Shown here piece by piece: positions 4,681 through 61,615 of a DNA stretch of 64,000 nucleotides (position 1 is its first letter; every line of letters starts with the position of its first letter). The translations under genes and the position numbers were made by a program. The notes beneath the pieces are model-generated. The model had not been told where the DNA came from and ran no database searches. It saw nothing but the letters and a program-made list of their open reading frames with translations. Origin of the DNA: a virus; the IMG/VR virus record IMGVR_UViG_3300020401_000016, positions 1 to 64,000 of that record; one strand, 5' to 3'.

Positions 4681-5121
4681 ATGTGTATGCCATGGACTTA
4701 TCAAGGTAAACCAATCAACACACTGCCGGAAGACTGTGAAGGATTTGTGTATCTAATCACAAACACAACCAACGGTAAACGGTATGTGGGCAAAAAATTG
4801 GCGAAATTCAAAAAGACACGCCCACCACTCAAGGGCAGGATAAACAAACGTAGAAGCAAGGTGGAATCAGACTGGAAAGACTATTGGGGTTCCAATGATC
4901 ACTTGCTGGAAGACGTGGCACAACTAGGCGAACACAAATTCACAAGGCAAATATTGTACATCTGCAACAGCAGAGGCGCAATGAGTTATCTCGAGGCTCG
5001 AGAACAGTTCGAAAGGCGAGTATTAGAATCCGACGAATATTACAATGGAATTATCAATGTGAGAGTTGGTGGTTCACGAATCCTAAGAGAAGAAATAAAG
5101 AAACACAATCCCAAGGCATAA
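4681..5121 (+). CDS. GIY-YIG nuclease-family protein
   Basis: 146 residues. The GIY-YIG signature is clear: GFVYLITN (residues 21-28) and KRYVGKK (33-39), with a basic insert (KGRINKRRSKVESDWKDYW), the helix carrying the expected catalytic Glu (YLEAREQF, about 104-111) and an Asn in YYNGIIN (about 122). The family includes phage homing endonucleases such as I-TevI and SegA, but small versions of this type also occur in marine phages with unknown roles. No separate DNA-binding module is visible. The start is ATG 4681; ATG 4687 is also possible, and neither has a clear ribosome-binding site. The structured region just downstream has group I intron features, which makes a homing role plausible. 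Confidence 0.75.
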   Translation: MCMPWTYQGKPINTLPEDCEGFVYLITNTTNGKRYVGKKLAKFKKTRPPLKGRINKRRSKVESDWKDYWGSNDHLLEDVAQLGEHKFTRQILYICNSRGAMSYLEAREQFERRVLESDEYYNGIINVRVGGSRILREEIKKHNPKA

Positions 5122-12237: not shown

Positions 12238-13266
12238 ATGTCAGAACAAAAAAATAAGTTCGAAGCAATGTTAGAAAAACTCGTAGCCGATGACAAACAA
12301 GGCGCAGAAGAGTTATTCCACGACATTGTTGTAGAAAAATCAAGAGAGATTTATGAAAATCTTCTTGAAGGCGATTTAGAAGATGCTAAAGTTGAAGAAA
12401 AAACTGAAGAAAAAACTGAAGCAAAAGCCAAAGAAGATAAAAAAGATGAAGCAGTAGAAGAGAAAACAGACGCTTCTGAAAAAGAAGAAGATGCTGTAGA
12501 AGAAAAAACTGAAACTTCTGAAAAAGAAGAAGACGCTGTAGAAGAAAAAGCAGACGATTCTGAAAAAGCAGAAGACAAAGTTGAAGAAGTATCTACTGAT
12601 GAAGCAGAAGAGAAAGCAGAAGAAACTGCTGAAATCCCTGCTGAGCAACAAATTTCGCCAGAAGCACACGGTGGAGATGCAACTGATGATATGATCGGTG
12701 ATATCGAAGCAGACAAAGGCGAAGAAGGCAACGATGAAAACGGTGAAGAAGACATCGAAGACAGAGTTGTTGATTTAGAAGATGCTATTGATGACCTTAA
12801 AGCAGAATTTGAAAAAATGATGTCAGACAAGGAAGATGGCGAAGGCGACGACGAAGACTCTGAAGGCGACGAAGAGAAAGAAGACGAAGCAATCGCAGAT
12901 CAATCAGCAGAGGGAGAAGTAGAAGTTGCTCCCGAACTTGGTGACCAACCAGCAGTTGAGTCAAAAGAAGCACCAAAAACTGCAACAGAAGAAATTAGAG
13001 AGTATGTGAACAAAGTAAGTGCATCAAACACTGACGGTTCAGATAATTCTAAATCTCCAGTTGCTGGTAAAAATGACATGGGTGGATCTTCAAGCAATAT
13101 AGCACAAGGTGGTGAAGAAGCAGGTTCTAAAGCACCAGCGGCTAAAGAAGAAGATGCAGGCAATGTTAACAAACCAGGTGCAAAGGCTAAAATGAGTGCG
13201 GCACCAAAGGCTCAGACTAAAGCAGATGATGACGGTTCTGCTTCAAAGTCAACATTGGGCAGTTAA
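12238..13266 (+). CDS. Very acidic prohead core / virion protein
   Basis: 342 residues, extremely rich in Glu, Asp and Lys. Residues about 75-120 hold three 14-residue repeats (VEEKTDASEKEEDA and two variants). Residues about 175-225 are a predicted coiled coil (IEDRVVDLEDAIDDLKAEFEKMM) followed by an acidic run. Its position directly before the protease, scaffold and capsid genes matches the T4 prohead core proteins gp67/gp68, which are small, charged and processed by gp21. It is much longer than either, so orthology is inferred from place and composition only. It has the clearest ribosome-binding site in the head block. Confidence 0.65.
   Translation: MSEQKNKFEAMLEKLVADDKQGAEELFHDIVVEKSREIYENLLEGDLEDAKVEEKTEEKTEAKAKEDKKDEAVEEKTDASEKEEDAVEEKTETSEKEEDAVEEKADDSEKAEDKVEEVSTDEAEEKAEETAEIPAEQQISPEAHGGDATDDMIGDIEADKGEEGNDENGEEDIEDRVVDLEDAIDDLKAEFEKMMSDKEDGEGDDEDSEGDEEKEDEAIADQSAEGEVEVAPELGDQPAVESKEAPKTATEEIREYVNKVSASNTDGSDNSKSPVAGKNDMGGSSSNIAQGGEEAGSKAPAAKEEDAGNVNKPGAKAKMSAAPKAQTKADDDGSASKSTLGS
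12454..12580 (+). repeat. Three tandem 42-bp repeats in the acidic core gene
   Basis: The 14-residue unit VEEK(T/A)(D/E)(A/T/D)SEK(E/A)ED(A/K) occurs three times, in frame. Such repeats readily expand or contract by slippage. Confidence 0.7.
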
Positions 13267-13286
13267 TAACCGTTAGGATATAAAGG

Positions 13287-13904
13287 ATGTTATCATTACG
13301 TGAGACGCTGACCTTCGACCAAGCAAAAATAGTCGTTGAGTCCAAAGATGAAAACAACGGAAAATCCCTTTACATGAAGGGTATTTGTATACAAGGTGGT
13401 GTGAAGAACGCTAACCAGAGAGTATATCCCGTGAGTGAGATCAGTAGGGCTGTCAGCACACTTAACGACCAAATAACTGGTGGATATTCAGTGTTAGGCG
13501 AAGTTGATCATCCGGAAGGTCTTAACATTAATTTGGACAGAGTCAGCCATATGTTAACAGATATGTGGATGGAAGGTCCAAACGGATACGGAAAATTAAA
13601 AATATTACCGACCCCTATGGGAAAACTAGTTGAAACAATGCTACAAAGCGGAGTTAAACTTGGTGTTTCTAGTAGGGGATCTGGTAATGTTAAAGAAGAC
13701 GGATCCGGACAAGTATCAGATTTTGAAATTATTACAGTAGATGTTGTTGCACAACCAAGTGCACCAGGAGCCTATCCAACTCCAATCTACGAACAGTTAA
13801 TGAATTCTAAAGGTGGATATAAGGCGTTACAAACAGCAAGGGACACAAAGGCACAAAAATATCTAAAAGAGGCGTTGGTTAACATAATCAACGGACTCAA
13901 ATAG
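13287..13904 (+). CDS. 21: Prohead core protease gp21
   Basis: 205 residues (T4 gp21: 212). Serine protease of the herpesvirus-assemblin fold that degrades the scaffold and trims capsid proteins after prohead assembly. The His motif is GEVDHPEG (His75) and the Ser motif is LGVSSRGSG (Ser128/129), with the fold elements GGVKNANQRVYP (38-49) and SDFEIITVDVVAQPSAPGA (about 143-162) around them. It is placed between the acidic core protein and the scaffold, as in T4. It probably cleaves after L/I-x-E sites such as the one in gp23. Confidence 0.93.
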   Translation: MLSLRETLTFDQAKIVVESKDENNGKSLYMKGICIQGGVKNANQRVYPVSEISRAVSTLNDQITGGYSVLGEVDHPEGLNINLDRVSHMLTDMWMEGPNGYGKLKILPTPMGKLVETMLQSGVKLGVSSRGSGNVKEDGSGQVSDFEIITVDVVAQPSAPGAYPTPIYEQLMNSKGGYKALQTARDTKAQKYLKEALVNIINGLK

Positions 13905-13917
13905 TAGGAGAAAATAA

Positions 13918-15009
13918 ATGTTAGATGCACTGAAATCACTCTTCGAAAACAACGCAATTTCAGAAGAGATCAGAGCAGAGATTGAATCCGCTTGGAATAC
14001 CAAAGTGGAGGAAAACAAACACGCAGTAACGTCAGAACTTCGCGAAGAATTTGCGAAGAAATATGAACATGACAAAGCACAGATGGTAGAAGCCATCGAT
14101 GCTATGGTTAATGAAAAGTTACAGGCGGAAATTGCTGAATTTGCCGAAGATCGTAAACAGTTGGCTGAACAAAAAGCCAAGTATGCGATTGCAATGAAGG
14201 AAGATTCAGCGAAGTTGAAAGGCTTTGTGTTTGAAAGACTTAAATCTGAAATCAGCGAATTACACGCAGACCAAAAAGTTATGGCAGAAAACTTCCAGAA
14301 ACTTGAGGAATTCGTAGTTGATGCTCTATCTAAAGAAATCGCAGAGTTTAACGAAGACAAACAAGACGTCGCAGAGACGAAAGTACGTCTTATCAGAGAA
14401 GCAAAAGCACACTTTGAAAAAGTAAGAACGAAGTTCATTACAAAGAGTGCTGAAGCAGTGACTACTATCGTTGAGAAAACATTGAAAAATGAAATTTCTC
14501 AATTGAGAGAAGACATTGACGCGGCTCGTAAAAACGACTTTGGTCGCAGACTGTACGAATCTTACGCTCAAGAATATTCACAATCTTTCTTGAACGAAAA
14601 AGGTGAGACAGCAAAACTTCTAAAAGTAGTTGACACAACAAAACTACAGGCGGAAGAAGCGAAAAAGACTGCTGAAGAGTTCAAGGCACAGGTTGACGCC
14701 AAAGAGGCTGAAATCAAATCGCTAAAAGAATCAGCAGAGAGAGAAAAAGTAATCAACGACTTGGTAAAGCCGTTGAATACAGAACAAAAAGATATAATGA
14801 CAAATCTACTGGAGAGCGTGGAGACTGGAAAGTTGCAAAAGCAATTTGAAAAGTATATGCCAGCGGTTATCAATGGTAATTCTCCAGCGAAAAAACAGGC
14901 ATTGAAAGAAGGCACAGAAATAACAGGCGACAAACAAGAAACAGTTAGTAAACCCGTGGGTCAATTCAACGGTAACATCGTTGATATTAAAAGACTTGCA
15001 GGGATATAA
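13918..15009 (+). CDS. 22: Prohead scaffold (core) protein gp22
   Basis: 363 residues (T4 gp22: 269). Almost entirely predicted alpha-helical coiled coil, rich in Glu, Lys and Ala, as expected for the major scaffold that fills the prohead and is digested by gp21. N-terminal LDALKSLFENNAISEEIRAEIESAW (1-25) and C-terminal NLLESVETGKLQKQFEKYMPAVI (about 298-320) are typical of marine T4-like gp22 proteins. Its place between genes 21 and 23 is diagnostic. AGGAG lies before ATG 13918. Confidence 0.88.
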   Translation: MLDALKSLFENNAISEEIRAEIESAWNTKVEENKHAVTSELREEFAKKYEHDKAQMVEAIDAMVNEKLQAEIAEFAEDRKQLAEQKAKYAIAMKEDSAKLKGFVFERLKSEISELHADQKVMAENFQKLEEFVVDALSKEIAEFNEDKQDVAETKVRLIREAKAHFEKVRTKFITKSAEAVTTIVEKTLKNEISQLREDIDAARKNDFGRRLYESYAQEYSQSFLNEKGETAKLLKVVDTTKLQAEEAKKTAEEFKAQVDAKEAEIKSLKESAEREKVINDLVKPLNTEQKDIMTNLLESVETGKLQKQFEKYMPAVINGNSPAKKQALKEGTEITGDKQETVSKPVGQFNGNIVDIKRLAGI

Positions 15010-15027
15010 CATTAAGGAGAAAAAACA

Positions 15028-16197
15028 ATGTCAGAACTAACAGAAGCTCGCTGGCAGGATACAAAGACAGCATTACTAGAAGGTCTTTCTGGTAATCAGA
15101 AGTCTGTAATGGAAGTGACTTTAGAGAATACAAGATCGTATTTGAACGAAGCCGCTACGGCAGGTGCCACTTCAGCAGGTAATGTTGCAACTTTGAACAG
15201 AGTGATTCTACCAGTAATCAGACGGGTTATGCCGACTGTGATTGCTAACGAATTGGTTGGTGTACAACCGATGACTGGCCCAGTTGGACAAATCCACACT
15301 CTAAGAGTAAGATACGCTGACACAACATCAGGTGGTGCAACAACAACCACTGCTGGTGAAGAGGCGTTATCACCGTTCAAGATCGCAGAAGCATATTCTG
15401 GAAACGACGGCAATCCGGCAAAAGGTGGCGCAACAGCGGCATTAGAAGGATCTGCAGGTAACAGATTATCAATCCAAATCTTGAAACAAACAGTTGAAGC
15501 GAAAACTCGTAAGTTATCAGCAAGATGGACTTTTGAGTCTGCTCAAGACGCTCAAGCACAGCAAGGTATCGACATCGAAGCAGAAGTAATGGCGGCATTA
15601 GCCCAAGAAATTACTGCTGAAATCGATCAAGAGATCTTAGCATCTTTGAGAGCATTAGCGGCTACAGAAGAAACATTCGACCAATCTGCTGTGTCAGGTA
15701 CGGCAACATTCGTAGGTGACGAACACGCGGCTTTGGCTGTATTGATCAACAGAGTAGCGAACAAGATCGCTCAACGTACAAGAAGAGGCGCAGGTAACTA
15801 CGCAGTAGTATCACCACACGCTTTAACTGTACTTCAATCAGCAACAACTTCAGCGTTCGCAAGAACAACTGAAGGTGCATTTGCGGCTCCAACTAACAAC
15901 AAAATGGTTGGTACGTTAAATGGTGCTATGAAAGTATACGTTGACACATATGCCTCAGACGCAACACCAGTATTGGTAGGTTACAAAGGTGCATCAGAAT
16001 CTGATGCGGCGGCGTTCTACTGCCCATACATTCCGTTGATGTCTTCAGGCGTTGTTCTTGATCCAACTACTTTTGAGCCAGTAGTAAGTTTCATGACTAG
16101 ATATGGTTATGTAGAGTTATCAAACACTGCATCATCACTAGGTAATGCGGCAGACTACTTAGGTGAAGTAGCGATCAGCAACGTTTCTTTCTCATAA
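15028..16197 (+). CDS. 23: Major capsid protein gp23
   Basis: 389 residues, shorter than T4 gp23 (521). HK97-fold major head protein. Conserved regions: LNRVILPVIRRVMPTVIANELVGVQPMTGPVGQIHTLRVRY (about 55-95), KLSARWTFESAQD (about 157-169), QEILASLRALA and the C-terminal YCPYIPLMSS-DPTTFEPVVSFMTRYGY (about 332-368). A candidate gp21 cleavage site is Leu39-Asn40-Glu41, which would remove a 41-residue delta peptide. Strong AAGGAG ribosome-binding site. A strong terminator follows the gene. There is no separate gp24 vertex gene here. Confidence 0.95.
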   Translation: MSELTEARWQDTKTALLEGLSGNQKSVMEVTLENTRSYLNEAATAGATSAGNVATLNRVILPVIRRVMPTVIANELVGVQPMTGPVGQIHTLRVRYADTTSGGATTTTAGEEALSPFKIAEAYSGNDGNPAKGGATAALEGSAGNRLSIQILKQTVEAKTRKLSARWTFESAQDAQAQQGIDIEAEVMAALAQEITAEIDQEILASLRALAATEETFDQSAVSGTATFVGDEHAALAVLINRVANKIAQRTRRGAGNYAVVSPHALTVLQSATTSAFARTTEGAFAAPTNNKMVGTLNGAMKVYVDTYASDATPVLVGYKGASESDAAAFYCPYIPLMSSGVVLDPTTFEPVVSFMTRYGYVELSNTASSLGNAADYLGEVAISNVSFS

Positions 16198-16218
16198 TAG
16201 AGAGCGAAGCAAAAATTT

Positions 16219-16247
16219 AAAAGGGCGGCTTTATGTCGCCCTTTTTT
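16219..16247 (+). terminator. Strong rho-independent terminator after gp23
   Basis: AAAAGGGCG (16219-16227) pairs with CGCCCTTTT (16237-16245), 9 base pairs, followed by T residues. It ends the morphogenesis operon. Confidence 0.9.
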
Positions 16248-16282
16248 ATTGACTGAATATCCACATTTTTTTCAAAAAACGG

Positions 16283-16310
16283 TTGACTTTTATTTTTTTG
16301 ATGCTATATT
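16283..16310 (+). promoter_or_regulatory. Sigma-70-type promoter with extended -10
   Basis: TTGACT (16283-16288), 16-base spacer, TATATT (16305-16310) preceded by TGC (extended -10). Start expected near 16317. There is no protein gene for nearly 300 bases, so it appears to serve the structured RNA that follows. Confidence 0.7.
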
Positions 16311-16316
16311 GTAAAC

Positions 16317-16535
16317 ATAAGCATTAGGAACGTAATTAATTCCTAATTATAGTGCAAGGAAGAGGCCTTTACCAGAAGGGTCGAACTTGACTAACCAGGG
16401 GTGGTACCCAGGCATTATCCGGAGAACGGAAGGTGTCACATCGCAGTCACTGGCGGGGTTAGGTTGTACGTATTAGAATGGTATTCGGGTACGTGCTTGT
16501 AGGTGTAACCAAGTCCTACCTATTTTGCTTATACT
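16317..16535 (+). ncRNA. Candidate structured small RNA of about 220 nt
   Basis: The region starts at the predicted transcription start and lacks a protein gene. Hairpins: ATTAGGAA/TTCCTAAT (16323-16347), CCTT/AAGG, GGG/CCC around GGTACC (about 16397-16410), CCG/CGG around GAGAA (about 16419-16430), GTACGT/ACGTGC enclosing GAAT/ATTC (about 16468-16500), and GTAGG/CCTAC (about 16499-16520) followed by TATTTT, which could act as a weak terminator. It is richer in G+C than the surroundings. No known RNA class is recognised. It could be a trans-acting RNA or a long leader for the next gene, though a late-type box lies between. Boundaries are estimates. Confidence 0.55.
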
Positions 16536-16590
16536 TTCTTATACTACCATTTAATTTTTTAGTTGTCTTTTATCTTTCTCAACAACCAAT

Positions 16591-16597
16591 CTAAATA
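16591..16597 (+). promoter_or_regulatory. Late-promoter-like box CTAAATA
   Basis: By T4 spacing the transcript would begin exactly on the ATG at 16603, so the message would be leaderless. Confidence 0.45.
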
Positions 16598-16602
16598 CTT
16601 TT

Positions 16603-16830
16603 ATGCATTGGTTAGTAATCTACTTTTACATACAAGGTAGTTGGATAGCAGGTGACTTTGTTCGTCCTGATGGTTGGAGCAGTATTGCTTACGACACTAA
16701 ACAACAGTGTGTTGAAAAAATGTATATGGCTAATGAAAACCTACAAAATACTGAAGGTTTACAAAATAAGGCTATTGCAATTTGTCAAGAATATAAACCT
16801 GGACCGTTCACAGCAACACCAAAATTCTAG
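16603..16830 (+). CDS. Small protein with hydrophobic N-terminus, unknown function
   Basis: 75 residues. The first 17 (MHWLVIYFYIQGSWIAG) are hydrophobic and aromatic, possibly a membrane anchor or signal. Two Cys (CVEKMY and AICQEY) are spaced as in a small disulfide-bonded domain. No family is recognised. It has no ribosome-binding site and lies 6 bases after a late-type box. Its stop immediately precedes the -35 element of the hemB promoter. Confidence 0.55.
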   Translation: MHWLVIYFYIQGSWIAGDFVRPDGWSSIAYDTKQQCVEKMYMANENLQNTEGLQNKAIAICQEYKPGPFTATPKF

Positions 16831-16859
16831 TTGACTGTTTACCAAAATTGTTGTATAAT
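16831..16859 (+). promoter_or_regulatory. Near-perfect sigma-70 promoter of hemB
   Basis: TTGACT (16831-16836), 17-base spacer, TATAAT (16854-16859). The start is expected at about 16866, which is the ATG itself. It is the best host-type promoter in the window and would allow hemB expression early, without gp55. Confidence 0.8.
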
Positions 16860-16865
16860 GTGCAT

Positions 16866-17678
16866 ATGGATTTTATACAACCAATATTTGTAAATCAGAC
16901 TAGTGACATCGTGCAGGGAAAATTAGGACCTGACAATGCAAGTTTTCCTTTACAAAAAATTAATGATGCAATCCAGAAAGATATTGACGTTGGTGTAGAA
17001 GATTTTCTTTTATTTGTTACTCCAGACAAAAAAACAAATACTCCGGATTGGAAATTTCAATCAGATGTTGTTAGTCATATCAAATCAAAATTTAACAAAC
17101 AAATAAATTTAGCAGTTGATGTGTGTATGTGTTCTACTACATTAGACGGACATTGTTGTATATTAGATAAACCACAAACCACCCAAGCACTTTTTATAGA
17201 TTTAGGTCGAAAATTAAAACAAGCAGGTGCTGATATTTTAGCACCTAGTGATATGCAAAAAGACACTGTGAAAAATTTAAAAATTGAAACACAATTACCA
17301 ATACTGTCTTACATAAAGTTTAGATCAAATTTTTACAGTTCATTTAGAGACCTTGCAAATAGCACACCTAGTTCAGAAAGATTTTATCAAATCAGTGTTG
17401 CTGATCCTCACAGTGCAAAGATCATTGCTTCGCAATATGATAAAGATGGTGCTGATTACTTGATGTTAAAGCCTGGTATGACAACTATAGATTTAATCAG
17501 TATGATAAAATGTAATACATATAAACCAGTTGGAGTGTATCAAGTCAGTGATGAATATTTAGGTTTGCCAACCGATAAACATCTTTATGAAACATATCAA
17601 ATATTCGATAGAGTAGGTTGTAATTTTATGGTTACATACGGTGCAAGAAAATTAGTAACAATGGTTAGTAAATATTAA
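16866..17678 (+). CDS. hemB: Porphobilinogen synthase (delta-aminolevulinate dehydratase), HemB
   Basis: 270 residues from ATG 16866; bacterial HemB is usually about 320-340. It condenses two 5-aminolevulinate molecules to porphobilinogen, the second common step of tetrapyrrole synthesis. Both active-site lysines are present: Lys151 in SYIKFRSNFYSSFRD and Lys202 in LMLKPGMTTIDLI. A zinc-type site C-x-C-x7-C is formed by Cys87, Cys89 and Cys97 (DVCMCSTTLDGHC). GADILAPSDM (121-130) and PVGVYQVSDEY (221-231) are diagnostic. The missing part is the N-terminal arm that in cellular HemB holds the octamer together. The in-frame TTG at 16848 lies inside the promoter, so the ATG at 16866 is preferred; the message would be leaderless. 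Confidence 0.92.
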   Translation: MDFIQPIFVNQTSDIVQGKLGPDNASFPLQKINDAIQKDIDVGVEDFLLFVTPDKKTNTPDWKFQSDVVSHIKSKFNKQINLAVDVCMCSTTLDGHCCILDKPQTTQALFIDLGRKLKQAGADILAPSDMQKDTVKNLKIETQLPILSYIKFRSNFYSSFRDLANSTPSSERFYQISVADPHSAKIIASQYDKDGADYLMLKPGMTTIDLISMIKCNTYKPVGVYQVSDEYLGLPTDKHLYETYQIFDRVGCNFMVTYGARKLVTMVSKY

Positions 17679-17679
17679 T

Positions 17680-17949
17680 ATGCATGAAGAACTACTAAAA
17701 AAATTTAAAGATTTAAAAAATAGACTACCTATTTGGAGAAAACAACATGGCATATTCCAAACAGATATCATGCGTATTGAAAAGAGTGCGGAAAAAACAT
17801 ACAATGAGTACTTAGATGTGATGATAAAATATAGGCAATCACGCAAACAACACTATGCAGATCAAGGAGCTCAAATACTTCAAAAAGGCATAGAAACTCT
17901 AAATAAAGTGTCAAAAATAGAGTTATTAACATCTCTCAGCAAAAGATAA
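17680..17949 (+). CDS. Small basic helical protein, unknown function
   Basis: 89 residues, basic and predicted helical (LLKKFKDLKNRLPIWRKQHG; YRQSRKQHYADQGAQILQKGIETLNKVSKIELL). It begins 1 base after the hemB stop, so it is probably translated from the hemB transcript. No family is recognised. A late-type box overlaps its stop codon. Confidence 0.6.
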   Translation: MHEELLKKFKDLKNRLPIWRKQHGIFQTDIMRIEKSAEKTYNEYLDVMIKYRQSRKQHYADQGAQILQKGIETLNKVSKIELLTSLSKR

Positions 17950-17952
17950 ATA
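17945..17952 (+). promoter_or_regulatory. Late-promoter-like box GATAAATA
   Basis: Overlaps the preceding stop codon. Start expected near 17958, giving an 80-base leader to ATG 18037. The leader holds two hairpins: CCGTAC/GTACGG (17970-17986) and GGGG/CCCC (17993-18006), followed by an AAAGGAG ribosome-binding site. Confidence 0.55.
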
Positions 17953-18036
17953 TCACTATAAAAAACGTGCCGTACATAGAGTACGGACTTATGGGGACAA
18001 CACCCCGTAGACCTAGAACGTCAAAGGAGAAAACAA

Positions 18037-18495
18037 ATGGGAAGACCACTTAACAAAAGGCTGTTTACAACAGCGGCTGGCGGTGCAACTGCTGGTGCAA
18101 ATGAAATAAAAGTAAACTTTAATTCAGGCGGTGGAGTAAAAGAAGGTACTATAATTAGGCAAAAAGGATCTAAAAAATTCGTTGTTGCTGAAACAGGTGC
18201 CGCAGATACGGAACACACTTGTACATTAACTACAGGAAAATTACCTGCCAATTTAGCGTCAGGTGAGATGAGTATCTCTGTACAAGGTAACGATAATGAA
18301 ACTTACACAGTAAGTAAAATTGCTGGACGTAAGTTAACAGTATCAGCGCCAACATCTACTGGATCTAACGCATTAGACGGATTATCTCTAAAATGGGATT
18401 TCGCGGCGGCTAGTGCAGGTAAAGTAAAAGTTGAAGAGGCTGGTGACGATGACGTTGCTAACACAGATGACGACGACTTTACAGAAGATGCATAA
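18037..18495 (+). CDS. Conserved virion-associated protein
   Basis: 152 residues, beginning MGRPLNKRLF and continuing GSKKFVVAETG and WDFAAASAGKVKVEEAG, with an acidic tail (DDDVANTDDDDFTEDA). It is a beta-rich type often seen in marine T4-like phages near structural genes; its exact place in the virion is unknown. It has a structured 80-base leader with a late-type box and a strong ribosome-binding site, so it is probably made in quantity late in infection. A perfect GNRA hairpin follows its stop. Confidence 0.65.
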   Translation: MGRPLNKRLFTTAAGGATAGANEIKVNFNSGGGVKEGTIIRQKGSKKFVVAETGAADTEHTCTLTTGKLPANLASGEMSISVQGNDNETYTVSKIAGRKLTVSAPTSTGSNALDGLSLKWDFAAASAGKVKVEEAGDDDVANTDDDDFTEDA

Positions 18496-18505
18496 TGAAG
18501 ACTTT

Positions 18506-18527
18506 GTTGTGGGGGCAACCCCACAAC
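18506..18527 (+). terminator. GNRA-capped hairpin after the 152-residue gene
   Basis: GTTGTGGGG (18506-18514) pairs with CCCCACAAC (18519-18527) around a GCAA tetraloop. No T-run follows, so it may be an mRNA 3'-end stabiliser or processing signal rather than a classic terminator. Confidence 0.5.
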
Positions 18528-18548
18528 ATACTAACAGGATTTTTATAA

Positions 18549-19574
18549 ATGAGTAAATTTTTAGTAGTCAACGATGGTGATTACACAATAAAAGTACAGT
18601 CGGGAGGAAAAATTACACTCGACACAGGTGGATCAACAGGTAGTGTAGAAATTACAGGCGATTTAATTGTACAAGGTGATCAAACAACCATCAACACTCA
18701 AGAACTTGATGTAGAAGATTCTATTATTAGAGTAAACAGAAATGATTCGACTCCAGGTGGTGTTGCATCTCCGGGTGCTGGTATAGAAATTTACAATGGT
18801 TTAGGTGGCGGTACGGCGCAAGGTGATGATGACCAAACTGCTCCAATGTTTTTATTCACTAAAGATTTCAATCATTCTTATTGGGGATCATCAGGAAACT
18901 TATCACAAAGTGGAACTTTTATATTAAGAAGCAAAAGTTCTAACACAGATTTAATTGGTTTAAGAACGCACAATATAAATTCAGACACAGGTATTGTTTT
19001 AGAGCCAGGCGGAAACACAACAATAAGAATTGAAAAAGTAAACTATGAAACTTATCTTTCAAATGACAATGATATACCAAACAAAAAATATGTAGATGAT
19101 GAAATTAATGCTATTACACTTGGTGCCGCATTTCCAAGAATTGTAGACGGTGATAGTGAAATAAAGATTTTTGATAATTCTACAACAGGTGCAGATTCAA
19201 GAATTGAAACAAAAATTGACAATGTTTTAAAATCATTCATTAGCAAAGATTATTTTGATGTTTACAGCACAACAATAAACTTAAATGAAGTAAGAATTGA
19301 GCAGAATGAAATTTCTACTAATTCTTCAAATGAAGATTTAATCCTTTCAGCACCAGGCACGGGTAGTGTTAAAGTGTCAGACAGTATGGTAATCAAACTG
19401 CGTCCAAACGTGTTAGATCCACTTGCTGACCCTGTATACAGCACAGAAGGTATAAAATTGTATGCTAAAACGCCAGGTGTGGGTGACTCAGGATTATTTT
19501 TTGTAAATACAAACGACGAAAGAGACGAATTGATCAGCAAACAACGTGCTTTGGTGTTCAGTCATATGTTTTAA
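18549..19574 (+). CDS. Fibre/baseplate-associated structural protein
   Basis: 341 residues, beta-rich, with N-terminal MSKFLVVNDGDYTIKVQSGGKITLDTG and the motif GDLIVQGDQTTINTQELDVEDSIIRVN (about 36-62). This motif recurs in tail-fibre proteins of marine T4-like phages. The sequence contains repeats of the type 'NEISTNSSNEDLILSAPGTGSVKV', also present in the two long fibres downstream, and ends in YSTEGIKLYAKTPGVGDSGLFFVNT. It is probably part of the fibre network. Its exact role is unknown. Confidence 0.65.
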   Translation: MSKFLVVNDGDYTIKVQSGGKITLDTGGSTGSVEITGDLIVQGDQTTINTQELDVEDSIIRVNRNDSTPGGVASPGAGIEIYNGLGGGTAQGDDDQTAPMFLFTKDFNHSYWGSSGNLSQSGTFILRSKSSNTDLIGLRTHNINSDTGIVLEPGGNTTIRIEKVNYETYLSNDNDIPNKKYVDDEINAITLGAAFPRIVDGDSEIKIFDNSTTGADSRIETKIDNVLKSFISKDYFDVYSTTINLNEVRIEQNEISTNSSNEDLILSAPGTGSVKVSDSMVIKLRPNVLDPLADPVYSTEGIKLYAKTPGVGDSGLFFVNTNDERDELISKQRALVFSHMF

Positions 19575-19583
19575 GGAGCAAAG

Positions 19584-19937
19584 ATGGCAATAAACAACGT
19601 AACAGTAACGCAAGGTAGCAATGCTCAAGTGTTTGCATCTGGTACTGTGCCAGCAGGTAAAACTTACGGAGTAACAAATATTTTAATCTGTAACACTGCG
19701 GCAGAAGACCAAACAGGAGCCAATGATGCAAGATTTAGAGTTTTTGTTGTGCCTAACGGACAAACATTTAACGCCAACAGCAACATGATAATCAATGATG
19801 CACTTTTACCAGGGGCAGAAACTTTTATCTTGGATTCAGAGAAATTGATGTTGACTGCTGGTGACACAGTTGTGGTTGAAAACACAGCAGTGAACAATGT
19901 AACTTTGATTGCAACAGTAAGTTACCTAGAGGTATAA
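19584..19937 (+). CDS. Small beta-sandwich structural protein
   Basis: 117 residues: AINNVTVTQGSNAQVFASGTVPAGKTYGVTNILICNTAAED then TFILDSEKLMLTAGDTVVVENTAVNNVTLIATVSYLEV. The pattern, a conserved 'I-C-N' strand and a final 'GD-x-x-V' strand, is shared with the small proteins at 28537 and 41952, so it belongs to a local paralogue family. It overlaps the next gene by 1 base. It is probably a fibre-tip or connector component; that is inference from place. Confidence 0.6.
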   Translation: MAINNVTVTQGSNAQVFASGTVPAGKTYGVTNILICNTAAEDQTGANDARFRVFVVPNGQTFNANSNMIINDALLPGAETFILDSEKLMLTAGDTVVVENTAVNNVTLIATVSYLEV

Positions 19938-20800
19938 TGCGATATCTAAAAAGACAATCAACTAACACTAGACTAATCGCTGGAAGAGGCGTGGTGTATG
20001 ACCAATATGAACAATTGATTATACCAGGTACAGGAGCAATTTTAGTTCCTAAAGGCGATACAGCAAGTAGACCTAATCCTGCAGAAGTTGGACAATTAAG
20101 ATACAACACAGACACAAGAAGTTTTGAATACTATGAAGGTGTCCCTAACGGCGGTAATGCATGGAAACAAGCAAGATTTAGAGAACCAGTTGCAGTTACA
20201 AAACAAAATTTAGGAAACGGCGATGACCTAGAAGTAAACTTTGGTCCACTTAATGCAAATGATGTAGACTTTTACTATCCCGCAAATCCAGAACAAGTTT
20301 TAGTGATGGTAGAAAACGTTTTACAAATACCAGACACAAACTATTCAATTGTGCAACAACCTTGTTATTATCAAACTACAAACATAGGATTTGCAAGTTC
20401 CTACAATGGCTATGCGGCTATTATTGGTAGAAACAATGCACTTGTAAATTTTGTTACAAAAGGTTTTTATGCAGGACAACAAATTACTGTAAGTGGTGCA
20501 TCTAACGGACAAAACAACGGTACATTCACGGTTGTAGATGTTGGTATAGATTTAAGTTTTCCACTTACTCCATCTTTCCCATCACAAGTAAGTTATATTC
20601 AAATACAAGAAACATTGATCACAGAATCAAACGGATCGTCCCCAAATATCATAACATTAGAAGGTAAAGATTCTAATAATGCATCTTATCAATCTACAAT
20701 TACCATCAATAATGTTGCGGAACCTGCCTTTTATATTAACTTTGGGACACCAGTACCAACTGGAAAACCTGTTAATGTATTACACAACTTTGACAAATAA
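19937..20800 (+). CDS. Fibre-associated structural protein
   Basis: 287 residues. The N-terminal part has GTGAILVPKGDTASRPNPAEVGQLRYNTDTRSFEYYEG (about 31-68), a short repeat unit found at the ends of many phage fibre proteins (compare the C-terminal GMLRYNTD and GMIRYNTN units of the 1448-residue fibre). The middle (about 120-210) has two Cys (PCYYQT) and a beta domain of unknown type. Start ATG 19937 overlaps the previous stop. Confidence 0.6.
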   Translation: MRYLKRQSTNTRLIAGRGVVYDQYEQLIIPGTGAILVPKGDTASRPNPAEVGQLRYNTDTRSFEYYEGVPNGGNAWKQARFREPVAVTKQNLGNGDDLEVNFGPLNANDVDFYYPANPEQVLVMVENVLQIPDTNYSIVQQPCYYQTTNIGFASSYNGYAAIIGRNNALVNFVTKGFYAGQQITVSGASNGQNNGTFTVVDVGIDLSFPLTPSFPSQVSYIQIQETLITESNGSSPNIITLEGKDSNNASYQSTITINNVAEPAFYINFGTPVPTGKPVNVLHNFDK

Positions 20801-46404: not shown

Positions 46405-46445
46405 TTCATGTAACTGTGTGTTATCGATACATACAGTTACATGAA
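46405..46445 (+). promoter_or_regulatory. 17-bp hairpin that includes the start codon of the first GT9 gene
   Basis: TTCATGTAACTGTGTGT (46405-46421) pairs with ACATACAGTTACATGAA (46429-46445), with one G-T pair and a 7-base loop TATCGAT. The ATG at 46441-46443 lies in the 3' arm. There is no T-run. It could block translation of the cassette, mark an RNase cut, or attenuate transcription. Confidence 0.65.
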
Positions 46446-47394
46446 CACTCAAACTGAAAGATCCAAAGCAATATTTCTAAACGGTGGCATAGGAAGAATT
46501 CTATGTGCAATTCCGGCAATAGAAAAATATCAAAAAGAATCAGGTGACGAAGATTTTATCGTTGTCATCGAAGGAAAATGTAACATATTAGATGGGCATC
46601 CAACATTGGATAGTAAAGCCTACGATATGTATCACAAAAATTTATTCCATACACACATTAAAAAGAGAGATATTATAAGTCCTGAACCTTATAGAGTATA
46701 CGAATATTTTTCTCAACAATGTAACTTATCTCAAGCATTTGATATTATATTAAATGACAAAGGTATTAGAGAGTTAGATAAACCTAAACTTTATCTTTCT
46801 AAAGAAGAAAAATTAAAAGCAACAGAAATTTTAAAAGAATGCAAAGAAAAAATTAAAGCAGACAAGTATGTTATATTTCAACCTTTTGGAAGAGCAATAA
46901 AACAAATAGATTCTAGTTTTGTTGATCCAAGTAACAGAAGTATTGAGTACACAAATTTTAAGAATATTATTAGAAAATTACACAAAGAAAAGGTTGGTGT
47001 AATTGTTATGAGCGATTTTGGGATAGAACTTAAAAAAGAAAATTTTGAAATGGACGTCGCACAACCTGAAAATATAGATTTAAGAATATGGGCGGCAATT
47101 ATTGAACAAGTTGATCATTTTATTGGTTGTGATTCTGTTGGACAACACTTTGCTTACAGTTTAGGAACTCCGTCAACAGTAATAACAGGAGCAACATTTC
47201 CAGAAAACACAACATATCCAGATAAAGAAGGTGTAAACATTGTTGATCTTGGACAAAATGATAGACAGTATGACCCTATTAGAATTACTTTCGACGAAAG
47301 AATTAGTCGAGTTAATGAAAACCTAATGTTTATGACTCCAGAAATAGAAGACTATGTTATAGACACAATAATGGGAAGGCAAACCGATGAGTAA
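46441..47394 (+). CDS. GT9-like (heptosyltransferase-type) glycosyltransferase A
   Basis: 317 residues, GT-B fold. N-terminal KAIFLNGGIGRILCAIPAIEKY (9-30) is the GT9 'GD-x-x-x-t-P-a' region. C-terminal domain: YVIFQPFGRA (about 141), VIVMSDFG, and IEQVDHFIGCDSVGQHFAYSLGTPSTVITGATFPENTTYP (about 221-260), matching the GT9 donor block (D-S-x-x-x-H-x-A-x-x-L-G-x-P-x-x-x-x-x-G). GT9 enzymes mainly transfer heptose from ADP-heptose. About 46 % of positions look shared with the gene at 49194 by eye. It overlaps the next gene by 8 bases. The acceptor is unknown; start codon lies in a hairpin. Confidence 0.75.
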   Translation: MNTQTERSKAIFLNGGIGRILCAIPAIEKYQKESGDEDFIVVIEGKCNILDGHPTLDSKAYDMYHKNLFHTHIKKRDIISPEPYRVYEYFSQQCNLSQAFDIILNDKGIRELDKPKLYLSKEEKLKATEILKECKEKIKADKYVIFQPFGRAIKQIDSSFVDPSNRSIEYTNFKNIIRKLHKEKVGVIVMSDFGIELKKENFEMDVAQPENIDLRIWAAIIEQVDHFIGCDSVGQHFAYSLGTPSTVITGATFPENTTYPDKEGVNIVDLGQNDRQYDPIRITFDERISRVNENLMFMTPEIEDYVIDTIMGRQTDE

Positions 47395-49201
47395 GAAAAC
47401 AGGATACATAGCCGCAATAGCCAGAGGACACAATTCCGGTGTATGTTTGTTAAAAGATGGTAAAATAGTTTTTTCTATTGAAGAAGAAAGATTGAGTCGA
47501 GTAAAATACGATGGTGGTCCATATGCTTCAATGGTAAAAATATTAGAATACACAGATAAAATTGATTATCTAGTTATTGCACATACTCAGTCATTGAAAG
47601 ATAGAAGCACAGGTAGAGTAGATTATAATGGTGATGATGTTTACACAGGACTAGCAAGAAAATTAGGATTAATAGATAAGAGAGGCACAGCAAAATCTCC
47701 AGATCATCCACAAGTAATTGACCTTTCACATATACACCACAAACTACACGCCGCTTTGGCTTTTTATAGATCAGGTTGGGACGATGCCGCGGCACTTATT
47801 GTTGACGGTGCTGGAACTTTTATTCCTGCAACTCACAGTGCAGGTCATCAGATGACTGTGTTTGAAACAGAAACAATTTTTGATTGTGCTTATCCTAACG
47901 ATTTTATAACAAAATATAAACACTATGGAACAAGTGAAAATTGTCAGTGTGCATATATTCCTGCCTATCCATCAGATTCGATGGGTGAACCAGGAAGTAC
48001 ACATGAAGCAGTTTTTTCTGACAGAGCAGGAATAGTAAAAGTTTATGAAGCAGTTACACAATACTGCGGATTTAGTGCCATTGAAGCAGGTAAAACAATG
48101 GGACTATTTCCTTATGGAAAACCAAATAAAGAAATTCCTGAACTGTTTGTACACAATGGTAAAGGAACTTTAAGTAATAGAAACTTGATAATTCCAACTT
48201 ATCCTAATGCGGCTCTTGTAAATTATGACAATTATCATGCATTGGAAGAAAAATTACAAGTAGACCAAAAAGACTTAACGGAACTTCAAAGTAGAAGAGA
48301 TCTGGCTTACGCTTGTCAAACTGATACACAAGAAGAAGTGCGAAAATTAATCTACAAAGCAGTTGAAATGACAGGCAAGAAAAAAGTTGTAATATCAGGC
48401 GGATATGGACTGAATTGTGTTGCAAATTATTATTACCTAGATACTTTACGCAAAGATGGTATAGAGATATATGTAGAGCCAGTTTCAAATGATGCCGGAA
48501 CGGCTATGGGAGCGGCTTTATTGTACTATTATTCATTGTCACAAAGCACAGATAAAGACACAACTAAAACATTATACCTAGGTCCTAAATATGACCTTTC
48601 AAACAATGACATAATGAAATACAATGACGAAGACGGCATTGAAGTTGTAGATTCTACAGATGAAGAAATTGCAAAACTGTTGACTGAAAAAAATATTGTT
48701 GCTTTATGGCAAGGTCAATCGGAAAACGGCCCTAGAGCATTAGGTAATAGAAGTTTATTATTTGATCCACGTTTTAAAGATGGTAAAGATTATGTTAATA
48801 GAGTAAAAAGAAGAGAATACTTTAGACCTTTTGCTGGATCTATACTGCATGAATACACACATGAATGGTTTGATTTGCGTGGCATGGAGGAAACTCCACA
48901 CATGATGTATGCAGTAAATTGTAAACCAGGTGTTGAAGAAAAAATACCTAGCATTATACACGTAGATGGAACTTGTAGGATTCAAAGTGTTAAAAAAGAA
49001 GACAATGAATTGTACTATAGATTAATTAAAAAGTTCCATGAAATGACAGAATGTCCTATTGTGTTTAACACTTCTTTCAATTTAGGTGGTGAACCTTTAG
49101 TGGAAACTCTTGATGATGCAGTTAGAACTTTACAAAATTCAGATATAGAATATCTATACTTGATTGAATATGGTAAATTAGTGAAGGTGAAAAATGGATA
49201 G
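47387..49201 (+). CDS. Carbamoyltransferase (NodU/TobZ/CmcH family)
   Basis: 604 residues, full family length. It transfers the carbamoyl group of carbamoyl phosphate, by way of carbamoyl-AMP, to a hydroxyl of a sugar or antibiotic. N-terminal Kae1-like domain: GYIAAIARGHNSGVCLLKDGKIVFSIEEERLSR (6-38) and the metal-site His117/His121 in HIHHKLHAALAFYRSG, DDAAALIVDGAG (132-143). C-terminal YrdC-like domain: SENGPRALGNRSLLFDPR (445-462), REYFRPFAGSIL and CPIVFNTSFNLGGEPLV (556-572). All motifs are intact. It overlaps both neighbouring GT9 genes by 8 bases, so the three are translated together and probably build one glycan. Confidence 0.9.
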   Translation: MSKKTGYIAAIARGHNSGVCLLKDGKIVFSIEEERLSRVKYDGGPYASMVKILEYTDKIDYLVIAHTQSLKDRSTGRVDYNGDDVYTGLARKLGLIDKRGTAKSPDHPQVIDLSHIHHKLHAALAFYRSGWDDAAALIVDGAGTFIPATHSAGHQMTVFETETIFDCAYPNDFITKYKHYGTSENCQCAYIPAYPSDSMGEPGSTHEAVFSDRAGIVKVYEAVTQYCGFSAIEAGKTMGLFPYGKPNKEIPELFVHNGKGTLSNRNLIIPTYPNAALVNYDNYHALEEKLQVDQKDLTELQSRRDLAYACQTDTQEEVRKLIYKAVEMTGKKKVVISGGYGLNCVANYYYLDTLRKDGIEIYVEPVSNDAGTAMGAALLYYYSLSQSTDKDTTKTLYLGPKYDLSNNDIMKYNDEDGIEVVDSTDEEIAKLLTEKNIVALWQGQSENGPRALGNRSLLFDPRFKDGKDYVNRVKRREYFRPFAGSILHEYTHEWFDLRGMEETPHMMYAVNCKPGVEEKIPSIIHVDGTCRIQSVKKEDNELYYRLIKKFHEMTECPIVFNTSFNLGGEPLVETLDDAVRTLQNSDIEYLYLIEYGKLVKVKNG

Positions 49202-50150
49202 ACAAAGTGCTTTTTTTATGAATGGTGGTGCTGGTAGGCATATTAGTTCCATACCCGCTTTAGAATTATATGCTAAAGAAAATCCTGATGATGATTTTAT
49301 AATTGTTTGTGAAGGTGGAACAGATGCGTACAAAGGTCATCCTTTATTACATTTTAGAGCATATGACAATTGGCACAAAAACTTATTTCAAGATTTATTA
49401 AAAGATAGAAACCTTATTTCTCCTGAACCATACAGAGTATGGGAATACTACAATCAAAAATGCAGTCTGGCGGAAGCATATGACATTGCAATTAATAAAA
49501 AAGGTCTTCGTAAATTACCTAAACCAAGGATATATCTTTCTAAAGAAGAAATTTTAATGGCAAGACAGATGATAGGTGAAGTAAAAGAAAAAACAAAGAA
49601 AAATAAAATTGTTTTAATACAGCCTTTTGGCAGAGGTGCTGAGAAAAAATCAGAATCTGAAGTTGTTGATTTGACAGGTAGAAGCATAGAGTTGAAAAAC
49701 TTATGGGCTATAATAAAAAAATTAAGCAAAGATTACGGTGTAATGGTGATGAGTGAGTTTGGTTTAGAATTTAAAACGCATGGCGGAATAAATCAACCCG
49801 TTGCACTGCCTTTACAGACACACATAAGAATATGGGCCGCATTAATCAAGCAGGTAGAACATTTTGTTGGGTGTGATTCAGTAGGGCAACACATTGCATA
49901 TTCATTTGATAAAACTATGACAGTGCTAATAGGCAGTACTTTCCCAATTAATACGTCTTTTCCAGACAATGACAAAGTAGACATCATTGATTTAGGCAAA
50001 GATAGCCGTATATACAGTCCTATACGTATTACACAGGACGAATATTCCGACCGTCTAAATGAAGGAATCATGGAAATGGACGAAAATCAAGAGCAAAAAG
50101 TGGTCAATTCCGTGAAGTTCATGATCAAGCACAAACACAAAAAAAAGTAG
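49194..50150 (+). CDS. GT9-like (heptosyltransferase-type) glycosyltransferase B
   Basis: 318 residues, paralogue of the gene at 46441: SAFFMNGGAGRHISSIPALELYAKENPDDDFIIVCEGG (5-42), KGHPLLHFRAYDNWHKNLF, SPEPYRVWEYYNQKCSLAEAYDI, VLIQPFGRG (about 140) and VEHFVGCDSVGQHIAYSFDKTMTVLIGSTFPINTSFP (about 222-258). The conserved donor-site Gly-Pro pair of glycosyltransferase A (LGTP) is SFDKT here, so donor use may differ. Ends in a Lys-rich tail (KHKHKKK). With two GT9 enzymes and one carbamoyltransferase, an at least two-sugar carbamoylated product is plausible. Confidence 0.75.
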   Translation: MDRQSAFFMNGGAGRHISSIPALELYAKENPDDDFIIVCEGGTDAYKGHPLLHFRAYDNWHKNLFQDLLKDRNLISPEPYRVWEYYNQKCSLAEAYDIAINKKGLRKLPKPRIYLSKEEILMARQMIGEVKEKTKKNKIVLIQPFGRGAEKKSESEVVDLTGRSIELKNLWAIIKKLSKDYGVMVMSEFGLEFKTHGGINQPVALPLQTHIRIWAALIKQVEHFVGCDSVGQHIAYSFDKTMTVLIGSTFPINTSFPDNDKVDIIDLGKDSRIYSPIRITQDEYSDRLNEGIMEMDENQEQKVVNSVKFMIKHKHKKK

Positions 50151-59609: not shown

Positions 59610-60041
59610 TTAAAGTAATTTTTTGGCTAAACTTTGTTGGTCAGCAGGACTTACTGGTGTCTTTTGTCCATCACCAGGAATAACTCTGTAGTTGTCATCT
59701 GGATCATCCATTGTGCTAACTTCTGTAACACTACCTGTATCTGTTGTACAAATAAGTTGATGTGGCATCAATGGAGGATTGTGCCATGTTGCACCAGTTT
59801 TTAATGGCTTTTCATATAATGTTGCAGTCTTTGTGTCAATATATCTTAATTTAAATTCACCATCATTTACAAACCAAGTTTCATCTTTGTTTTTATGAAA
59901 ATGCATTGAAAATTTTGCATCTTTTTTAGTGAATACTAAAAATTTACCACAGTAGTGTTCGTTGGATGCCCATACAACTTCATATCCCCATCCTTTTTCA
60001 ATCTTACCTTCTTTATTAAAATTTTTCGACATATTGTTCAA
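59610..60041 (-). CDS. Cupin-domain protein (sugar-phosphate isomerase-like)
   Basis: 143 residues, single cupin barrel: KGWGYEVVWASNEHYCGKFLVFTKKDAKFSMHFHKNKDETWFVNDGEFKLRYID (about 16-70) with metal-type His in FSMHFHKNKDETWF, then GATWHNPPLMPHQLICTTD (about 83-101) with the second His motif. It resembles the mannose-6-phosphate isomerase type II family, but the activity is not proven. The TTG at 60041 has GGAG 5 bases upstream, while ATG 60032 is the alternative start. It overlaps the end of hldD, so it is the last gene of the heptose operon. Confidence 0.7.
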   Translation of the reverse strand: MNNMSKNFNKEGKIEKGWGYEVVWASNEHYCGKFLVFTKKDAKFSMHFHKNKDETWFVNDGEFKLRYIDTKTATLYEKPLKTGATWHNPPLMPHQLICTTDTGSVTEVSTMDDPDDNYRVIPGDGQKTPVSPADQQSLAKKLL

Positions 60042-60828
60042 TTGTACTCCAATCTACGTTAACAAATTTATTTACTTTAGAATTGTCTGCCCGTGTGTAA
60101 CTTTGGTAATGCTTTTTAATATTTTCTGGCATTGGAATTTCTTCTATTTTGGCATTAAATTTATTTGCCACTACTTCTGCAACGTGTTTAAAACTTATAT
60201 TAGTGCCAGTGCCAACATTGAACACACCAGAAGTATCTGCTGAAAGCATTTGTTTATGAACTTCACAAACATCATGCACACTGACAAAATCACGTGTGTA
60301 GTTTTCACTCCCCTCAAAAATCTTAATCACTCCTGTTTGTTTTGCCTGTTCAATAAATTTACTGACTGGACTCATTTGTTTTCCTTTATGTTCTTCCATT
60401 GGTCCGTACACATTAAAATATCTGAATCCTTGTACCAAAATATTAAATTCTCCTGCTTCTTTTACGAATCTATCAAATAGGTACTTGCTCCATGCATAAG
60501 GCGACTGTGGTGACACATTGTCTTCTTCATTAAATTTTTCTGTATTACCATAGACACTTGCCGAACTGGCGTATTGAAAATTTGCACCCATTTGTTCACA
60601 CATTTGTAACAAACGCATACTATATTCGTAATTCTGTGTTAAAATTTTATCTACATTAGTTTCTGTTGTAGAACTAATTGCACCTAAGTGTATTACCCAA
60701 TCATATTTAGATGGATCTGGATAAACGTTTGGAGTGTATTCAAATCCTTCTACTAAATGATCTTTTTCAAGATGCTGTATTAAATTTTGTCCAATAAAAC
60801 CAGCGCCACCTGTAACTAATATTCTCAT
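60016..60828 (-). CDS. hldD: ADP-L-glycero-D-manno-heptose 6-epimerase-like, HldD
   Basis: 270 residues, about 40 shorter than E. coli HldD (310). Short-chain dehydrogenase fold: NAD(P) motif GGAGFIG (7-13), HLGAISSTTETNVDKILTQN (48-66), YASSASVYG (86-94) and the catalytic YAWSK (Tyr111, Lys115). GFRYFNVYGPMEEHKGKQMSPVSKFIEQA (134-162) is the diagnostic HldD block; DFVSVHDV (180-187) follows. HldD makes the L-glycero form of ADP-heptose used by heptosyltransferases. It starts directly after the stop of the SGNH gene, in one operon with hldE. Confidence 0.85.
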   Translation of the reverse strand: MRILVTGGAGFIGQNLIQHLEKDHLVEGFEYTPNVYPDPSKYDWVIHLGAISSTTETNVDKILTQNYEYSMRLLQMCEQMGANFQYASSASVYGNTEKFNEEDNVSPQSPYAWSKYLFDRFVKEAGEFNILVQGFRYFNVYGPMEEHKGKQMSPVSKFIEQAKQTGVIKIFEGSENYTRDFVSVHDVCEVHKQMLSADTSGVFNVGTGTNISFKHVAEVVANKFNAKIEEIPMPENIKKHYQSYTRADNSKVNKFVNVDWSTIEQYVEKF

Positions 60829-61614
60829 TTAAAAACCAAAATATTGGAAATCACCTTTCCATTTAAATTTTTTGTAATAATCGTTGTCCATTTCAACCAT
60901 GTTAACATCTAATTCATCATTTGTCAAATAGTGTTGAATAAATTCATTTTTAGATACGTCAACACCTAATCTTGGTGCTAAATGTTCTTTTACCCAATTA
61001 GCATGAGTGCTTATAGATGGATGCTTATCTTTTTCAATTTTTTTCCTTTTTGTAAACAAACTAATAGGATCTTGATCTTTATATGTAACATTAATCACTG
61101 GACTTTTTCTATCATCAGCATATGATTGAATTGCTGTCACCCAACCTGTGTAAATATTTGTGTTGTGTACAAACTCTTTATTTTGTAATAAAGTAGGCAC
61201 ATCTACACTACTTGTGACAGTCCATTTACAAGGTAAACTTCTTAAAAAATTTATTGTCATGCTAATATAATTGTGGCTCATGTACATATAACTTTCTTCA
61301 TTCCAAGTTTGTTGGATCCAAGGTTCTTCTACACTTTTCATCCAAATATTACCACCTGCTCTCCAATTGCCAAAAGGTAATATGCCCACTGAGTGTAAAT
61401 CTAATCTGTTAAAATCTGTAAACTGAACAACAACGTAATCATCTTCAGTAACTTTATTTTTCGTTAGTGCTTCATTGACACGTTGCATAATTGCGTTGTT
61501 ACCAAGACCACTTATTGCCCAATTCTGATGTTCATCGAATTGATATCCAAGCAAATCACTCCATGTGGGCCAATAGTAATTTGTGTAACTACAACCAAAT
61601 GTAAAAAGTTTCAT
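60829..61614 (-). CDS. SGNH/GDSL hydrolase-like protein
   Basis: 261 residues. SGNH block I: FTFGCSYT (5-11, Ser9); block II Gly in ISGLGNNA (34-41) with Asn40 nearby; block V DKHPSISTHANWVKEHL (196-212, Asp196 and His198). The order and spacing fit an SGNH esterase/acetyltransferase-partner fold. Such enzymes remove or move acyl groups on sugars. In this operon it may edit a glycan. The substrate is not known. No signal peptide. It is 1 base downstream of the 2OG oxygenase stop. Confidence 0.7.
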   Translation of the reverse strand: MKLFTFGCSYTNYYWPTWSDLLGYQFDEHQNWAISGLGNNAIMQRVNEALTKNKVTEDDYVVVQFTDFNRLDLHSVGILPFGNWRAGGNIWMKSVEEPWIQQTWNEESYMYMSHNYISMTINFLRSLPCKWTVTSSVDVPTLLQNKEFVHNTNIYTGWVTAIQSYADDRKSPVINVTYKDQDPISLFTKRKKIEKDKHPSISTHANWVKEHLAPRLGVDVSKNEFIQHYLTNDELDVNMVEMDNDYYKKFKWKGDFQYFGF

Positions 61615-61615
61615 C

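Follow-up and report, generated by a model that had tools for sequence, protein, structure and literature searches.

Porphobilinogen synthase (PBGS), the product of hemB, is a textbook case of regulation via changing oligomer shape, a model that hinges on the N-terminal arm. A viral hemB gene that appears to encode the enzyme without this arm raises the questions of whether the arm is truly absent, where such a protein comes from, and what it might do during infection. The gene lies in a stretch of 64,000 nucleotides (positions 1 to 64,000 of IMG/VR record IMGVR_UViG_3300020401_000016; hereafter, the window), in which hemB occupies 16866..17678 on the + strand and encodes, from an ATG start, a protein of 270 aa.

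The assignment of this protein as an armless, zinc-type PBGS was made from a profile search, phmmer, an AF2 model and dN/dS. The hemB product matched the Pfam family ALAD (PF00490) with an E value of 2.7e-45 and 155.3 bits (cut-off 24.6), and phmmer against the PBGS entries of the PDB gave an E value of 1e-21. A homologue set was obtained by scans of IMG/VR, in which about 50 contigs proved to carry such a gene, giving 26 distinct full-length sequences. The full catalytic set that the initial annotation had named was found exactly at the positions given there: the Schiff-base lysines K151 (17316..17318) and K202 (17469..17471), which align with the lysines of the PDB PBGS structures, and the zinc-site cysteines C87 (17124-17126), C89 (17130-17132) and C97 (17154-17156), within 17124..17156, all on the + strand. 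The three-cysteine DxCxC...C site reads DVCMCSTTLDGHC. Its cysteines are kept in 26/26 armless phage sequences, as are K151, K202 and the lid residues R161 and Q175, and the predicted protein thus carries the Cys3 site of zinc-type PBGS, as had been proposed. Although identity within the set falls to about 52%, none of the 26 departs from the common set of active-site, lid and zinc residues, except for Tyr/Phe at 225 and one Ser-to-Gly change at 228, and the dN/dS of phage hemB (0.04-0.20) indicates strong purifying selection.

The AF2 model of the window HemB is a PBGS barrel (pLDDT 93.4, pTM 0.92), and its comparison with PBGS crystal structures gave TM scores of 0.89-0.92, the predicted fold being the (beta/alpha)8 fold of PBGS. 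Four internal loops are shorter than in cellular HemB, indicating that the phage protein has been slimmed throughout, beyond the N-terminus alone. The NCBIfam equivalog for porphobilinogen synthase (NF006762) has a cut-off of 297 bits; the window HemB scored 142, and a chromosomal HemB of the HIMB59-like alphaproteobacteria described below, at 278.5, also fell under the cut-off. Since the Pfam threshold was passed but that of NF006762 was not, the most fitting label for the window HemB is that of a divergent PBGS subfamily without an arm (within PF00490). No PHROG family covers it, and no PBGS was found among viral predicted structures. From the conserved residues and the model, we infer that the window protein is an active zinc PBGS.

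The PF00490 alignment pairs hemB residues 2-264 with profile positions 26-315. Because it opens at position 26, the first 25 positions, which constitute the arm, are absent from the window HemB, and the phmmer alignments with PBGS of mouse, human and E. coli likewise begin only at residue 29-31 of those proteins. All 26 armless sequences share the start M-[DEQ]-[FL]-[IL]-QP, and in every armless homologue the barrel strand begins after just one or two residues and an in-frame stop lies 0-37 codons upstream of the ATG; in the L029 group, a TAA stands immediately before it. A frameshift or a wrongly called gene start could in principle conceal an arm, considering that the stop-to-stop frame of the window hemB reaches 6 codons further upstream, from a TTG. 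However, the identical start in 26 sequences, the close in-frame stops and a promoter that overlaps the putative arm codons leave this reading a negligible chance, and it was rejected. Since the would-be arm codons in the window are filled by the promoter and stops lie upstream, the arm is truly absent, and the earlier description of a protein that starts near the barrel is borne out. As predicted from its gene, the window HemB thus lacks the 25-35-aa arm of canonical octameric, allosteric PBGS.

The promoter in question is a sigma-70-like element, TTGACT-N17-TATAAT with ACCAAAA in the spacer, at 16831..16859 (+ strand), the -10 box of which stops 6 nt short of the hemB ATG. With a score of 11/12, it was the best of 19 promoter-like sites in 13000-20000 and the sole instance of TTGAC..TATAAT in the 64-kb window; the whole motif occurs once, against 0.14 occurrences expected by chance. 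The promoter pattern with the CCAAAA spacer block was present at 26/397 loci examined, every one a hemB locus. A second clade of hemB phages (phage clade 2) keeps both the pattern and the ACCAAAA spacer motif, as in L394 (TTGACA-N17-TATAAT-N6-ATG) and L389 (TTGACA-N16-TACAAT-N6-ATG). In the L029 subgroup, the pattern lies about 200 nt upstream, not at the ATG, and the family relatives further out have no promoter directly at the hemB ATG. Given the short distance between -10 box and ATG, the hemB transcript is probably leaderless in the window's group.

With its 69,862 bases, the record represents a T4-like myovirus contig that encodes gp20 (portal), gp21 (prohead protease), gp23 (major capsid protein) and a baseplate protein resembling gp26. 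The gp23 gene (15028..16197, + strand; PF07068, E 1.3e-99) is the fixed upstream neighbour of the hemB site in all hemB phages; among named phages, its closest counterparts are found in Sinorhizobium phage Phosso (72%) and in jumbo phages, PA5oct and GAP32 among them. Every hemB phage examined has the gene order gp21-gp22-gp23-(variable small ORF)-hemB-orf89-orf341-orf117-orf287. The variable ORF is orf75 in the window (16603..16830, + strand), and only some relatives have one. The small charged protein encoded by orf89 (17680..17949, + strand) follows hemB directly at every locus examined, in both phage clades; an orf89 also lies beside gp23 in a phage without hemB (L295:6272-6511).

The fixed place of hemB between gp23 and neck/whisker-region genes, together with the four shortened loops, might suggest that HemB was recruited to serve the head-gene region structurally or as a regulator, with catalysis incidental. 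Nevertheless, the catalytic, lid and zinc residues are invariant and hemB has a sigma-70-like promoter of its own. Moreover, among 42 gp23-related contigs with enough downstream sequence, hemB was found in 2 and was absent from 40, so that it is not needed for the virion, and we regard such a recruitment as very improbable. The same count indicates a clade-specific insertion at one otherwise variable site. Since gp20-gp23 and other virion genes flank all loci examined, hemB is a host-type metabolic gene in true viral genomes. Neither hemC nor genes for a class I/II aminotransferase (the ALA synthase fold) or a HemF-type coproporphyrinogen oxidase were found in the hemB phage contigs, which are mostly fragments, indicating that the benefit of hemB rests on the host pathway. 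Collectively, these loci demonstrate that T4-like myoviruses of one aquatic lineage carry a zinc-type HemB, catalytically complete as judged from its residues, as a single auxiliary metabolic gene in the arrangement gp23-hemB-orf89.

Several other elements of the window were recorded. A manA-like RNA (RF01745) lies between gp23 and orf75 at 16324-16529 (+ strand; 47.3 bits, below the gathering score of 55.2; E 3e-11); a separate promoter-like site for it was seen at 16283-16310. A 32-nt core of this RNA occurs exactly in 68 IMG/VR contigs, and the element is absent from two close hemB relatives (L003 and L004). The structured region 16317-16540 had been considered as a novel RNA, and this was rejected in favor of the manA-like assignment. 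An Rfam freshwater-2 RNA at 17970-18039 (+ strand; 57.2 bits, above gathering) precedes, and slightly overlaps, the start of an ORF at 18037. Sugar-modification genes at 46441-50150 and 59610-63903 encode a NodU-like carbamoyltransferase, located between two similar ORFs of which one is weakly glycosyltransferase-9-like, as well as an HldE-like bifunctional kinase/adenylyltransferase, an NAD epimerase, and cupin, 2OG oxygenase and NUDIX proteins. A gene for a SegE-type GIY-YIG homing endonuclease (4681-5121; PF19835, E 9e-36) lies near the recombination genes gp46/gp47.

The origin of the phage HemB was assessed with a final tree of 83 rows. L069, a 400-kb contig with HemB and HemC, was set aside as cellular. 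The armless phages formed one clade (100/100) and phage clade 2 another (99/96); the two were united at 100/99, and together they joined the HemB of HIMB59-like alphaproteobacteria and a short HemB of some SAR11 genomes (SAR11-short), again at 100/99. Full arms characterize the next group out (L199, L231, L232). An ordinary SAR11 HemB as the sister of the phage proteins was rejected (AU p 5e-9), and the metal-free motif DVALDPYT-HGHD was present in each of the 9 ordinary SAR11 sequences that were inspected. A long-branch artefact was considered and dismissed, the phage stem having shortened from 1.5 in the first tree to 0.54 and 0.56 once clade 2 was added, with the placement unchanged. The CSxTxDGHC motif is exclusive to the phage, HIMB59-like and SAR11-short groups, and the YG[AT]R motif is shared by these three, the next group out and 1/17 other alphaproteobacteria; both agree with the tree and carry no long-branch risk. 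At the level of sequence, it is therefore established that the phage HemB belongs to an arm-eroding subfamily shared with HIMB59-like alphaproteobacteria and a few SAR11 genomes. The supposition of the initial annotation that this copy came from outside the host lineage stands in part: the phage HemB does fall outside the ordinary alphaproteobacterial and SAR11 clade, but its sister is the zinc-type HemB of HIMB59-like alphaproteobacteria and of 2/49 SAR11-order genomes. Nothing in the analysis shows that the host is Pelagibacter.

The closest cellular proteins, L070 and L071 (on Alphaproteobacteria/Proteobacteria contigs), have 42-43% identity to the phage HemB, the next best 31%, and their hemB genes lie in chromosomal operons of the order hemC-hemB-hemE-hemH. 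About half of 60 sampled genomes of the L070/L071 order have a short-arm HemB of 306-307 aa and about half the ordinary 334-aa type, and the short-arm protein is the sole HemB found in the cellular sister genomes. The two SAR11-order genomes have a similar short form of 302 aa, while the remainder of the 49 have ordinary HemB; when 142 genomes from across the class were sampled, a HemB of the phage-like type was limited to the HIMB59-like and SAR11-short groups, plus one more genome, G111. SAR11 16S probes gave no match in the order with the short-arm cellular HemB, and an assignment of this order to HIMB59, which has two families (PMC10734472), fits. The short-arm, zinc-type HemB of these bacteria (L071, L155, L178 and kin) is an apparently undescribed replacement of the ordinary metal-free alphaproteobacterial HemB. 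Since the phage HemB branch beside the cellular clade and not from within it, the tree names no direct donor; hemB may have been transferred from phage to cell. Nine INPHARED matches of HemB to named phages were judged to be bacterial contigs filed as phages. These putative contaminants (OR847202, OR844993, OR851529, CAKLQH020000030 and similar) carry ordinary bacterial HemB and are mostly unannotated 'UNVERIFIED' clones; one is an Acinetobacter contig with hemB beside dadA.

Arm lengths, counted up to the barrel motif, were compared across the tree. The arm comprises 25-35 aa with an RLR...R..V.ET motif in canonical HemB, 27-30 aa in the full-arm relatives of the next group out, 17-18 aa in HIMB59-like HemB, 13 aa in SAR11-short HemB, about 2-13 aa in phage clade 2, and 1-2 aa in the window clade. 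This distribution indicates a stepwise erosion, in which about 27 arm residues became 13-18 and then none, and since short arms are already present in the cellular sister proteins, armlessness was not a one-step phage invention. A model of the HIMB59-like protein has a confident barrel and, at lower confidence, the short arm. A second feature of the allosteric enzyme is Glu232 of E. coli PBGS, a ligand of the allosteric Mg, whose equivalent in animals is an arginine. Among other bacteria and archaea, 25/26 have Glu at the aligned position, as does every ordinary SAR11 sequence examined; the residue is Ala in the full-arm relatives, Ser in the HIMB59-like and SAR11-short proteins, and T/I/R/L/H in the phages. 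By this alignment, the window HemB does not have the allosteric-Mg glutamate of canonical PBGS, and given its replacement in full-arm relatives, the glutamate was lost before the arm.

These two trends also bear on a plainer account, in which HemB is an ordinary accessory enzyme, the arm is dispensable throughout the subfamily, and its loss reflects genome streamlining with regulation unchanged, the HIMB59-like ancestor having already lost the switch. The stepwise drop in arm length along the tree and the early replacement of Glu232, in full-arm relatives and in cellular proteins with arms of 13-18 aa alike, are in its favor, yet it leaves unexplained why a short arm was retained in cells and in phage clade 2 while phage clade 1 has none. 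We consider this account possible but somewhat doubtful.

According to the morpheein model, the octamer is the only form that closes the lid securely, and it is the arm that stabilises this closed-lid state (PMC7729013). Given that the arm normally stabilises the active octamer, its loss does not imply constitutive activity, and the hypothesis that the window HemB is constitutively active is, as stated, not supported. Since the arm supports lid closure in known PBGS, an armless enzyme could be weak unless compensated; by analogy with the PBGS of Rhodobacter capsulatus, which is an active hexamer (PMC535902), compensation for a lost octamer is possible. The armless HemB might therefore be a weak, high-Km form, hexamer- or dimer-like, that drains or buffers ALA instead of raising heme output. 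Non-octameric human or E. coli PBGS indeed has a Km of 5-20 mM at neutral pH (PMC7729013), and the hemB phages yielded no further tetrapyrrole gene of the tested families. On the other hand, strong purifying selection acts over the whole active site and lid, and the reduced-arm cellular sisters, which rely on the only HemB found in their genomes, indicate that a reduced arm is compatible with a working pathway; we thus judge a weak enzyme unlikely.

Most likely, hemB encodes an early-expressed auxiliary enzyme that would feed host heme synthesis without the octamer-hexamer switch. The host sigma-70 RNA polymerase would transcribe hemB early, giving a leaderless mRNA from at or near the ATG. 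The phage HemB would then condense two ALA to porphobilinogen using Zn and the two lysines, and host HemC, HemE and HemH would take the product on to heme, so that the infected cell keeps its cytochromes supplied. Lacking both the arm and the glutamate for the allosteric Mg, the phage HemB should not run the octamer-hexamer switch; it would probably be a smaller or detached-dimer assembly, the lid of which closes without an arm. This explanation is supported by the kept active site, the low dN/dS, the PBGS fold, the conserved start, the promoter, the synteny, the tree, the shared motifs, the replaced Glu232, the cellular hem operon context and the heme-pathway genes known in aquatic phages (PMC7029224, PMC11480375). 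Against it stand the arm-aided lid closure of known PBGS, as a result of which activity could be low (PMC7729013), the failure to find hemC, an aminotransferase or HemF in the mostly fragmentary hemB contigs, and the further-out family relatives without a promoter at the ATG. As a whole, the explanation of an auxiliary zinc PBGS with an eroded arm, a leaderless early mRNA, a contribution to host heme supply and no switch seems to us fairly probable. That it would be the first natural armless PBGS, active outside the octamer-hexamer switch with a lid that closes without an arm, at the end of a series from full through short and vestigial to armless, and made from a leaderless mRNA in infection, is a stronger claim, to which we give slightly less than an even chance.

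A natural armless enzyme, with cellular and viral intermediates on one tree, would make the need for the arm testable with four or five natural proteins in place of engineered truncations. In addition, the step from ALA to porphobilinogen joins the heme genes known from aquatic phages, and attention is drawn to a zinc-type HemB with a short arm, not described so far, in abundant marine bacteria that have relatives with the metal-free enzyme.

Among known systems, the heme-pathway genes captured by aquatic phages are comparable to hemB but concern other steps of the pathway: aquatic phages carry alaS, with loci for heme oxygenase and bilin reductase (PMC11480375), and pelagimyophages carry hemC and coproporphyrinogen oxidase (PMC7029224). 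The texts of both papers do not mention hemB, and a literature search, with subscription papers and preprints outside its reach, found no phage HemB. The canonical zinc PBGS of human and E. coli and the metal-free alphaproteobacterial and SAR11 HemB share with the window protein the TIM barrel, the two Schiff-base lysines and the lid Arg/Gln; they differ in their 25-35-aa arm with the RLR-R-ET motif, their allosteric-Mg glutamate and their longer loops. The PBGS of Rhodobacter capsulatus resembles the window HemB in having no allosteric metal site, whereas its catalysis is metal-free, its active form is a hexamer, and its published homology model has N-terminal arms (PMC535902). The short-arm cellular HemB (L071, L070, L155, L178), which form the sister group, are closer, with the CSxTxDGHC zinc motif, the YGAR motif and the loss of the allosteric glutamate, but they have an arm of 13-18 aa, full-length loops, a place in a chromosomal hem operon and 42-45% identity. 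Phage clade 2 (L286, L382-L397) has the same gp23-hemB-orf89 synteny and the same kind of promoter, and differs from the window HemB in a residual arm of <=13 residues in most members, an intact lid-lysine spacing (STKF) and an identity of 43-47%.
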